Part shown: piece by piece, positions 17,240 to 20,137 of the stretch
Numbering within the stretch: the first letter of the stretch is position 1
Layout: each line of letters starts with the position of its first letter
Assembly: GCF_947494755.1 (NCBI RefSeq)
Contig: NZ_CANLVZ010000001.1
Coordinates: 310,001-374,000, forward strand
Source: an uncultured Tateyamaria sp.
GTDB taxonomy: Bacteria > Pseudomonadota > Alphaproteobacteria > Rhodobacterales > Rhodobacteraceae
Reading direction: 5' to 3'
Length of the DNA: 64,000 bases
Translations under genes and position numbers: made by a program
The notes under the pieces: model-generated
Database searches by the model: none
Told to the model about the DNA's origin: nothing
Seen by the model: only the letters and a program-made list of their open reading frames with translations

Positions 17240-19069
17240 TTACTCTTCGTACCACCAGAATTGCGGCATCCAGTCCGGCCCGTCGCCATAGATCGGGATC
17301 ACGTCCGGGTATTTCATCTCGGCGATATGGGCGATGCGACCCGTGGTGAACTGCCAGAACGGCACCACATAGCGTCCCGCCGTCAGCAGCCGGTCGAGCG
17401 CACGGGTGGCGGCGATGGACTCCTCGCGGCTGGTGGCGGCCAGCATCGTCTCGATCATCGCATCGATGGCCGGGTCCTTCGCGCCCATCAGGTTAGGCGT
17501 GCCCTCCTGATCGGCGGCTTCCGAACCCCAATAGAAAAACTGCTCGTTGCCGGGGCTGAGCGACATGGCACGCCGGTGATAAGTCATGTCGAAATCGAAG
17601 GTCGAGGTGCGCGCGGTGAATTGCGCGCCGTCCACCAGATCGGTATCGACAGTGATCCCCATCTGGGTGAGAGCTTGCGTGTAAAGGTCTGCAATCGCAC
17701 GATCTTCGGTGCGTTGCTGATCGAGCAGGATGGTGAAGGTCAGCGGGTTGCCGTCCGCATCCGACAGCTTGCCGTTCTGAGTGGTCCACCCGGCCTCTTC
17801 CATCAGCGCCAAGGCGCGGCGCAATCCTGCGCGGTTGCGCAAGGTGCCATCGCTTTGAGGCATCTCGTAGCCCTCCATCACGCCGGGCAGCAGATTGCCG
17901 TTGAACGGGGCCAGCAGCTCGGCCACGCGGCCTTTGGCGGGGCCGGGCTCCATCGCGAGCGGCGAGTTCGAGAAGTAGGAGGTGATGCGCGGCTGTGCGC
18001 CGCCGGTCAGCGTGTCGTTGATATATTCGAAGTTGAAGGCGGTGATCAGCGCCTCGCGCACGCGCCAGTCGTCAAAGGGCGCGCGGCGGGTGTTCATCAC
18101 AAAGCCGGTGATGCCCGAAGGTTTCTGATGCGCGATCTCGGTCTTGACCACGTCGCCCGCAGCGGCGCGGGGGAAATCGTACTGGCTCGCCCATGTCTCG
18201 GCGTTGAATTCGCGGATGGCCGACACGTCACCAGCCTTGAACGCCTCGAATACCACATCACCGTCGCCGTAGAAGTCGATGGTGATCTCGTCGAAATTGA
18301 AGGTGCCGCGCATGAAGTTGATGTCGGCCCCCCAATAGTCGGGGTTGCGGGTGAGGGTGACACTACGCGCCGCCTCGAAATCGCTGATCACATAGGCACC
18401 TGACCCGATGGGCACGTCATTGATCGTGGCGGCGGCGAAATCCTTCCCCTCCCACTGCGCTTTTTGGAGGATGGGGCGCATTCCCGCCAACAGGGCCAGT
18501 TCGCGGTTGTCGGCGTTGAAGGTGAACTTGACCTTGCGCTCGCCCGTCTGCTCAAGGCTCTCGATCTGGTCCCACAGGCTGCGATAGCGGCCGTGACCTT
18601 GGGTACCGAGGGTTTCGTAAGACCAGATCACATCCTCGACCGTGACGGGGCTGCCATCCGAAAATGTCGCCTCGGGGCGGAGGGTGAATTCGACCCAGGT
18701 GCGCGCCTCGTCCGTCTCAATCGATTCGGCGAGCAAGCCGTAAAGCGCAAATGGCTCACCCCGGTTCCGGCCCATCAGGCTTTCATGTGTTAAGAAACGG
18801 AGCTGCCAGGGCACGTTGCCTTTCTGTATGTAAGGGTTCAGCGAATCAAAACTGCCCGTGTTGGCCAGCGTAATCGACCCACCTTTGGGCGCATCACGAT
18901 TCGCATGGGGAAGAGACACAAAATCCGGTGGCAGTAGTGGGTCGCCATACATAGCTATGCCATGTTGTGGCTCTGCTAGTATGTACCCCGGGGCAGCGAC
19001 CAGCCCGGCCAGAATCGCGCCCCGGGTGCATTTTTTGACCCGCTCAAAGTGGAAAAAATCGAGTGCCAT
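17240..19069 (-). CDS. Extracellular solute-binding protein, family 5 (YejA-like), orphan
   Basis: 609 residues from the ATG at 19069. Signal peptide: KKCTRGAILAGLVAAPGYILA before EPQHG. The mature start HGIAMYGDPLLPPDFVSLPHANRDAPKGG is the YejA-type opening; later LAESIETDEARTWVEFTLRPEATFSDGSPVTVEDVIWSY is the family 5 (oligopeptide/dipeptide) signature. YejA homologues bind peptides or microcin C for an ABC importer in the periplasm. No permease or ATPase gene is next to it; instead it is coupled to an aquaporin. An in-frame start at 19108 would put 13 non-signal residues in front. Divergent from the candidate sRNA and bdhA. Confidence 0.88.
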   Translation of the reverse strand: MALDFFHFERVKKCTRGAILAGLVAAPGYILAEPQHGIAMYGDPLLPPDFVSLPHANRDAPKGGSITLANTGSFDSLNPYIQKGNVPWQLRFLTHESLMGRNRGEPFALYGLLAESIETDEARTWVEFTLRPEATFSDGSPVTVEDVIWSYETLGTQGHGRYRSLWDQIESLEQTGERKVKFTFNADNRELALLAGMRPILQKAQWEGKDFAAATINDVPIGSGAYVISDFEAARSVTLTRNPDYWGADINFMRGTFNFDEITIDFYGDGDVVFEAFKAGDVSAIREFNAETWASQYDFPRAAAGDVVKTEIAHQKPSGITGFVMNTRRAPFDDWRVREALITAFNFEYINDTLTGGAQPRITSYFSNSPLAMEPGPAKGRVAELLAPFNGNLLPGVMEGYEMPQSDGTLRNRAGLRRALALMEEAGWTTQNGKLSDADGNPLTFTILLDQQRTEDRAIADLYTQALTQMGITVDTDLVDGAQFTARTSTFDFDMTYHRRAMSLSPGNEQFFYWGSEAADQEGTPNLMGAKDPAIDAMIETMLAATSREESIAATRALDRLLTAGRYVVPFWQFTTGRIAHIAEMKYPDVIPIYGDGPDWMPQFWWYEE

Positions 19070-19148
19070 TTCGTCAACAATCCCTGTCTGCCCTTGTTTT
19101 GTTAACAATAGCGATGCGCGGACCTTTACGCATTATCAAACTTTTAGC

Positions 19149-19178
19149 TTGGACTCTTTGCGCGGCATTGCGTATAAC
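19149..19178 (+). promoter_or_regulatory. Sigma70-type promoter of candidate sRNA
   Basis: TTGGAC at 19149-19154, 18-base spacer, TATAAC at 19173-19178; predicted start near A19185. Confidence 0.55.
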
Positions 19179-19184
19179 AAGGGC

Positions 19185-19261
19185 ACTGCTCGATAGGTTT
19201 CTTGCCTGTATGAAACCTGCCTCAATAACTTAACGCCAGCTTCGTGCTGGCGTTTTTTTTT
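19185..19261 (+). ncRNA. Candidate small RNA of about 77 nt with two stem-loops and an intrinsic terminator
   Basis: Between a good promoter (19149-19178) and a strong terminator. Stem 1: AGGTTTC (19195-19201), 10-base loop TTGCCTGTAT, GAAACCT (19212-19218), perfect. Single-stranded linker GCCTCAATAACTT. Stem 2: CGCCAGC (19234-19240), loop TTCGT, GCTGGCG (19246-19252), flanked by AA/TT that extend it, then nine Ts to 19261. The layout (5' hairpin, A/U-containing linker, terminator with long U-tail) is that of Hfq-dependent trans-acting sRNAs. No open reading frame fits. It could also be a leader/attenuator of bdhA (start 19352), but the terminator separates them by 90 bases. No known family recognised. 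Confidence 0.6.
19234..19261 (+). terminator. Strong rho-independent terminator
   Basis: CGCCAGC-TTCGT-GCTGGCG followed by TTTTTTTTT; the best intrinsic terminator in the window, forming the 3' end of the candidate sRNA. Confidence 0.88.
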
Positions 19262-19351
19262 GACCCCGAGCCATGCTGGACCATCCCGCCATTCCGCTTG
19301 TGGGCTCCCCGTGACATGCTGCGCGCAACAGTCGATTAGGAGAGCGGCACC

Positions 19352-20137
19352 ATGGCATTTGAAATCTCACTTGGCGGCAAAACAGCCGTCATCACGGGCT
19401 CCAATTCCGGGATCGGTCTGGGCATGGCGTGGGAACTGGCGCGGGCGGGGGCGGATGTGGTGCTGAACTCGTTCACCGACACTGAAGAGGACCACGCGCT
19501 GGCCCGCGACATCGCGGATGCGACCAGCACGAACACCCGCTACATCCAGGGCGACATGTCCAAGGGCGATCAATGCCGTGCGCTGATCGATCAGGCGGGT
19601 GCCTGCGATATCCTGATCAACAACGCAGGCATCCAGCATGTGGCACCGATCCCCGAGTTTCCGGTCGACAAGTGGGATGCGATCCTCGCCATCAACCTCA
19701 GCTCGGCCTTTCACACGACCGCTGCCGCGCTGCCGATGATGCGCGCCGCCGGGTGGGGGCGGGTCATCAACATCTCTTCCGCGCACGGGCTGACGGCCTC
19801 GCCCTACAAGGCCGCCTATATCGCGGCCAAGCATGGCATTGTCGGGCTGACCAAGACCACCGCGCTTGAAACCGCCGAAGAGCCGATCACCGCCAACGCT
19901 ATCTGTCCAGGCTACGTGCTGACGCCCATCGTGGAAAAGCAGATCCCCGACACGATGCGCGAGTACGACATGAGCCGCGAAGAGGTGATCCAGAACGTCA
20001 TGCTGAAACGTCAGCCGTCCAAGGAATTCGCGACGACCGAACAGATGGGCGGCACCGCCGTGTTCCTGTGCTCAAGCGCTGCCGATCAGATCACCGGGAC
20101 GACGATCAGCGTGGATGGGGGATGGACGGCGCTGTGA
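19352..20137 (+). CDS. bdhA: D-3-hydroxybutyrate dehydrogenase
   Basis: 261 residues, short-chain dehydrogenase. TGSNSGIGLGMA cofactor loop, NNAGIQHVAPIPEFP, INISSAHGLTASPYKAAYIAAKHG with catalytic Ser, Tyr and Lys, and a C-terminal DGGWTAL, all matching the BDH subgroup rather than acetoacetyl-CoA reductase. Oxidises (R)-3-hydroxybutyrate to acetoacetate in polyhydroxybutyrate and ketone-body use; cytosolic. Start ATG has AGGAGAG 7-8 bases upstream. Ends near a small hairpin facing the DUF502 gene. Confidence 0.93.
   Translation: MAFEISLGGKTAVITGSNSGIGLGMAWELARAGADVVLNSFTDTEEDHALARDIADATSTNTRYIQGDMSKGDQCRALIDQAGACDILINNAGIQHVAPIPEFPVDKWDAILAINLSSAFHTTAAALPMMRAAGWGRVINISSAHGLTASPYKAAYIAAKHGIVGLTKTTALETAEEPITANAICPGYVLTPIVEKQIPDTMREYDMSREEVIQNVMLKRQPSKEFATTEQMGGTAVFLCSSAADQITGTTISVDGGWTAL

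Follow-up and report, generated by a model that had tools for sequence, protein, structure and literature searches.

A candidate small RNA gene with a near-invariant 5' hairpin domain in the Rhodobacteraceae

The Rhodobacterales are ecologically important bacteria and include laboratory models. Among bacterial small RNAs (sRNAs), the Hfq-dependent trans-acting ones share a simple anatomy, namely a promoter of their own, a 5' hairpin, a single-stranded linker and a terminator with its U tail, all within 70-80 nt. Several described RNAs approach the one reported here. First, SorY of R. sphaeroides (RF02651) is likewise a Rhodobacteraceae sRNA of similar length; the SorY model scores 17.9 bits in our sequence against a cut-off of 111. 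Second, StsR (formerly RSs0827) of R. sphaeroides is, in the accessible part of its description, a 72-nt orphan sRNA of the same family (PMC8307010), and the northern probe given for it in the accessible part of a further paper, GGACAGTGAAGGTAGAACGG, has no counterpart in our RNA (19185-19261 of the window, by which we mean the whole 64,000-nt stretch of DNA that was analyzed; PMC11354728). Third, alphaR8 (MmgR, SisA-D), as presented in the available portion of its source, is an alphaproteobacterial Hfq-associated sRNA with a terminator, of which MmgR is linked to polyhydroxybutyrate storage; its defining 10-mer core UUUCCUCCCU is missing from the RNA described here, and most of its copies adjoin a gene for an N-formylglutamate amidohydrolase, whereas ours adjoins genes for an ABC transporter substrate-binding protein (SBP) and a 3-hydroxybutyrate dehydrogenase (bdhA) (PMC12559287). 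RSs2778/UdsE, considered on a rough estimate of gene numbering, is described as a 5'-UTR product whose 3' end is given as 'unknown' rather than as a terminator (PMC8625941); it was not adopted on these two grounds.

A likeness by description comes from P. denitrificans, where Intergenic 134 and Intergenic 60, of 84 and 80 nt, were confirmed by RT-PCR and are described as conserved in Rhodobacteraceae, Intergenic 134 and a putative R. sphaeroides sRNA lying in the same gene context (PMC5107571, accessible part). In strain PD1222 Intergenic 134 is placed at 759993-760077 on the minus strand and Intergenic 60 at 1384880-1384960 on the plus strand. Both resemble the present RNA in size and description, the comparison being one of descriptions only. 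However, the conservation list for Intergenic 134 in that text adds Rhizobiales, Chloroflexus and Streptomyces, and that for Intergenic 60 adds Sphingomonadales (PMC5107571), whereas our class scan shows none of these. We infer that Intergenic 134 is the better fit by replicon, because of its numbering and because large Paracoccus plasmids carry the RNA. Another P. denitrificans RNA, sRNA-29, is antisense to a transporter gene in the available text, unlike ours (PMC6686037). Trans-acting sRNAs are also reported from R. pomeroyi (PMC4809877), and further R. sphaeroides sRNAs are named, in the accessible parts of their sources, without sequences that could be matched here (PMC8307010, PMC5089854, PMC7074977, PMC7866481, PMC3413700, PMC3320616, PMC3688512). 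Sequencing has probably captured the RNA already, and it may be an unnamed entry in RNA-seq lists published for Paracoccus or Rhodobacter.

The sequence-only reading of this DNA had recognized no known family, and the Rfam 15 models agree, with no match at the gathering score anywhere in the 64-kb window. A permissive scan of the same window returned 16 matches, all under the cut-off; the best sub-threshold models for the RNA, BjrC1505 (RF02356; 29.1 bits against 50) and RyhB (RF00057; 23.7 bits against 55), aligned best over the linker and terminator. When short stretches of the RNA and its complement were searched against open papers, supplementary tables lying outside the search, a single match was obtained, by its title a Mycobacterium paper, and no description of the RNA as a family was found in open papers, again with supplementary sRNA tables outside the search. 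'Novel' accordingly holds for Rfam 15 and the open papers searched, not for supplementary sRNA tables. By its sequence, this is an sRNA gene of a known kind that is without a matching Rfam family and is unusually conserved.

Table 1. Features of the sRNA locus and its neighbors (positions in the window)
Feature	Position	Strand	Evidence or remark
Divergent ABC transporter substrate-binding protein (SBP_bac_5)	17240..19108	-	Pfam PF00496, E 6.3e-68
Conserved element CAAACTTTTAGCTTGG, overlapping the -35 box	19137..19152	+	CAAAC/TTTT columns 75-92% conserved, 170 upstream regions
-35 box TTGGAC	19149..19154	+	TTG columns 88-99% conserved, 170 upstream regions
-10 box TATAAC	19173..19178	+	TATA columns 91-98% conserved, 170 upstream regions
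sRNA gene	19185..19261	+	about 70-77 nt, putative start A19185; fold and family conservation
Stem-loop 1: AGGTTTC / loop TTGCCTGTAT / GAAACCT	19195..19218	+	
Stem 1 arms and loop	AGGTTTC 19195-19201, GAAACCT 19212-19218; 10-nt loop TTGCCTGTAT 19202-19211	+	
Linker	19219..19231	+	GCCTCA part near-invariant, remainder variable (alignment); possible pairing and Hfq region
Rho-independent terminator and T tail	19232..19261	+	nine T at 19253-19261
3-hydroxybutyrate dehydrogenase (bdhA)	19352..20137	+	TIGR01963, 350.7 bits, cut-off 307.05

The promoter boxes, stem 1, loop, linker and nine Ts all lie where the sequence-only reading had placed them (Table 1). It had drawn both hairpins with 7 bp; this stands for stem 1, which the computed fold extends by one U-G pair, and gives way in the terminator to a stem of nine pairs (AACGCCAGC/GCTGGCGTT), two of them using tail Ts. 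The sequence at the start of the linker, 19219-19228, is GCCTCAATAA, and the likely transcription start lies 7 nt past the -10 box. The predicted fold of 19185-19261 has an energy of -24.8 kcal/mol, compared with -12.9 for shuffled sequences (z -4.48, with none of 200 shuffles as good). Taken by itself the terminator is unremarkable, since a scan of 18500-20000 gave three sites against 1.7 (sd 1.4) in shuffles. The comparative evidence from related sequences is much stronger than this fold score, with matches in 289 of 295 family genomes and promoter boxes kept at a constant distance from the start in 170 distinct upstream regions. The conserved promoter columns, the gene contexts and a covarying terminator agree with the proposal that promoter and terminator both belong to the sRNA gene itself, and, judged by its conservation, the candidate is a genuine sRNA gene with a Rho-independent terminator.

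This conservation extends over nearly the whole family. A 126-bp query spanning the promoter and the RNA found matches in 289 of the 295 Rhodobacteraceae genomes sampled, that is in 288 of 294 genera (the sample takes nearly all its genomes from different genera, mostly one per genus), and completeness is 71-92% in the six genomes with no match. The exact 38-mer CTGCTCGATAGGTTTCTTGCCTGTATGAAACCTGCCTC (19186-19223) occurs in 279 of these 295 genomes from 294 genera, once per genome except in G181, where it is found twice. There, G181:C30 and G181:C64 each carry an exact copy; one of the two lies 4 nt from a contig end, and the duplication is therefore perhaps an assembly overlap. Weak second matches to the query (24-37 nt, E about 2e-4 to 5e-4) appear on G130:C101, G252:C10 and G276:C11; they may be chance matches, partial copies or sequences resembling targets.

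Beyond the family the signal falls off. All 61 genomes of the order sample match, and all of them are Rhodobacteraceae. Across the class sample, 37 of 385 genomes match at E <=0.01; the five above 100 bits (counting the genome of origin) are of the same family and the remaining 32 reach at most 30 bits. The core is absent from the printed stretches of 25 of these weak loci, which are mostly terminator hairpins or GC-rich sequence. Strong matches in the class-wide sample are thus confined to the Rhodobacteraceae as far as the sequence comparison goes; weak relatives may have escaped the search, since it was run with Infernal's stricter filters. Among named genomes the 38-mer lies in at least 118 stretches; the 80 titles listed from these name Rhodobacterales, two Neomegalonema bins and unclassified Alphaproteobacteria, and the genera among the matches listed include Leisingera, Ruegeria, Sulfitobacter, Paracoccus, Rubellimicrobium and Thioclava. 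Viral contigs held no exact match to the 22-nt hairpin. In Paracoccus pantotrophus, P. versutus and P. ferrooxidans the RNA sits on plasmid-class replicons of 1.5-2.2 Mb, so that a near-universal gene of the family is found on a secondary replicon in Paracoccus.

The RNA's conservation also stands out from its flanks within about 2 kb on each side: from 2.5 kb upstream to 2 kb downstream, the only other 15-mers common to at least a quarter of 118 listed loci fall in the RNA, its promoter and one stretch of the neighboring coding sequence about 220 nt upstream. One covariance model annotates the RNA across the family. With the 38-mer in 279 of 295 genomes and yet no Rfam 15 match at the cut-off, the RNA makes a good candidate core regulator.

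The promoter was recovered at a constant distance from the start, with -10 (TATAA) and -35 (CTTGGA) motifs in 170 distinct upstream regions, every one from a locus with the exact core. Eighteen nucleotides separate the two boxes in the window, and TATAAA, TATAAG or TATAAC serves as the -10 in 128 of 175 loci. The boxes and spacing bear out the sequence-only reading, but its label 'near-consensus' is generous as to strength, because the -35 matches TTGACA at three of six positions and the -10 TATAAT at five of six, and a consensus scan of 18500-20000 listed no promoter at its threshold. Immediately 5' of the -35 box, and again at a constant distance from the start in the 170 regions, lies CAAACTTTT; in 131 of 175 loci the 60 nt upstream include CAAANTTT, and, with up to three mismatches allowed, the window contains the upstream element once. 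We read CAAACT-TTT-AGCTTG as an imperfect dyad overlapping the -35 box, a candidate regulator site or upstream element. Relatives keep the promoter, stem 1 and terminator together, rather than the terminator alone; in the most diverged of them the promoter is less well kept, with CTTG and a TATA-like box mostly present and the dyad often lost.

Within the RNA itself two halves behave differently. The 5' domain of about 40 nt (tail, hairpin and start of the linker) is near-invariant across the sampled Rhodobacteraceae genera, while the linker beyond A40 drifts in length and sequence among 43 aligned relatives. In the same alignment, all seven consensus pairs of the terminator show changes on both sides, whereas none of the nine pairs of stem 1 and its flanking pair does, one stem 1 pair being altered on one side or broken in two sequences. 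A run of at least five Ts within 60 nt past the core is present in 177 of 178 loci (median 8). Even among the 30 most diverged loci, picked from the lowest-scoring family matches with the two weakest excluded, 25 carry the exact 38-mer (it is missing in L033, L042, L046, L056 and L061), and the first hairpin is retained in all four of the five others that were folded (L046 excluded). The want of compensatory swaps over such a distance suggests that the sequence of stem 1 itself is under selection, and hence that selection may act on the stem 1 and loop sequence beyond the hairpin shape. This family-wide fixity of stem 1 sets the RNA apart from Hfq-dependent sRNAs in general, and a hairpin that is near-invariant where it would be free to vary by compensation raises the question of what reads it.

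From its anatomy, we think it reasonably probable that the RNA is a trans-acting, base-pairing sRNA of the Hfq type. As in others of its class, the terminator and U tail would load Hfq, and the exposed near-invariant segments, namely the 5' tail ACUGCUCG, the loop UUGCCUGUAU and the linker CUGCCUCA, would base-pair at the ribosome-binding regions of several mRNAs and in most cases block their translation. On this view, having many targets in common would account for the strong conservation. The window also carries the gene for Hfq, as noted earlier (Pfam Hfq, E 1.6e-33), and UGCCU is contained in both the loop UUGCCUGUAU and the linker CUGCCUCA. The SBP and bdhA neighborhood hints at a role in uptake or carbon-storage metabolism. 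Pairing of the RNA with its SBP and bdhA flanks, computed for 60 of 159 usable loci, gave a mean z of 0.0 to -0.3 against shuffles; for the SBP coding region, again over 60 loci, the mean z was -0.2 to -0.4, and neither is clearly better than shuffles. Exact complements of the linker or the loop were also sought within 25 nt of an ATG in eight genomes; 100 loci among the seed matches listed were examined, with 62 open frames. A few of these have plausible starts, among them what we take to be a motA-like gene (in an R. sphaeroides-like genome) and a gene for a zinc-ribbon protein (in the genome of origin and others), and we estimate them to be at about chance level. The motA site is present in one of nine homologs, and the zinc-ribbon site, among seven start regions, is full in one and present as an 8-mer in one more, leaving no conserved exact-seed target found by the linker and loop complements in the eight genomes.

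The negative outcome of these target searches counts against this reading. So, for its ordinary form, does the near-invariance of both strands of stem 1, since seed pairing by loop or linker does not demand it. A different explanation has the whole 40-nt block binding a protein or another RNA, as a decoy, a sponge or a ligand of a core machine, rather than seeding on mRNAs. It draws on the near-invariance of stem 1, loop and 5' tail together, with no both-side changes in stem 1, and on the neighbor-pairing and exact-seed searches, which yielded no conserved mRNA target. However, the anatomy is that of a typical sRNA with a terminator and T tail and an exposed loop and linker, many mRNA targets could equally yield strong conservation, and the partner is only hypothetical, so that we hold the explanation to be rather unlikely. 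The related and broader proposal, that the 5' domain with both hairpin strands is a single recognition surface, making the RNA a Rhodobacterales core riboregulator or core-machine ligand beyond seed pairing, we regard as tentative, with a slightly better chance.

The neighborhood bears on a further alternative, a cis-acting leader (attenuator or riboswitch-like) of bdhA. Neighbors were counted at 178 exact-core loci, a set that includes a few genomes twice and many short stretches. To the left of the RNA, 163 of the 173 testable loci have a divergent SBP_bac_5 gene of the peptide type; in the window its start is likely the ATG at 19069 rather than the listed end of the open reading frame. Downstream, 130 of the 166 testable loci have the 3-hydroxybutyrate dehydrogenase gene, transcribed in the direction of the RNA, and the order SBP, RNA, bdhA recurs in an annotated Paracoccus ferrooxidans record and in a presumed R. 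sphaeroides genome. In so many loci a fixed domain and then a terminator precede bdhA, as would be expected of a leader, but bdhA is not found downstream in the other 36 testable loci, where the RNA is retained, and in the four loci of this kind whose next gene was identified a convergent gene follows: L003 has DUF502, L004 a dipeptidase, and L119 and L137 have mfd. Since loci without bdhA keep the RNA with convergent genes following, it is not simply a bdhA leader. Nor does the alignment show a conserved anti-terminator pairing, because the terminator changes independently of the fixed domain, and the leader is accordingly very improbable. Close to negligible is a tiny peptide encoded by the block from the hairpin ATG (MKPAS...), for although the conserved block contains this ATG in the window (19210-19212) and in most aligned relatives, the wobble positions are fixed, the frame is lost past codon 5 (with a stop after five codons in L032 and L068 and none before the terminator in L043), and the 5' tail and loop, mostly out of frame, are just as fixed.

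Some features of the surroundings are recorded in their own right. In L119 (an uncultured Paracoccaceae bin) and L137 (an Alphaproteobacteria single-cell genome), where neither SBP nor bdhA was found nearby, the RNA is convergent with mfd (TRCF domain), and a similar long convergent frame occurs in L149, L040 and L049. Finally, within the minus-strand SBP coding sequence, at about 18913-18965 (the HGIAMYGDP..LP.DF codons), nucleotides seem to be conserved beyond the needs of the protein. Across 122 readable loci, codon use in this stretch is skewed to ATA for Ile (77 of 115), GCT for Ala (78 of 111), TAT for Tyr (97 of 121), CCA for Pro (78 of 115) and GAT for Asp (101 of 112), and the palindrome CATAGCTATG, which stands about 200 nt 5' of the sRNA, is present in 67 of the 122. 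Its pairing with the sRNA did not exceed that of shuffles. The stretch is possibly a control element acting as DNA or RNA.
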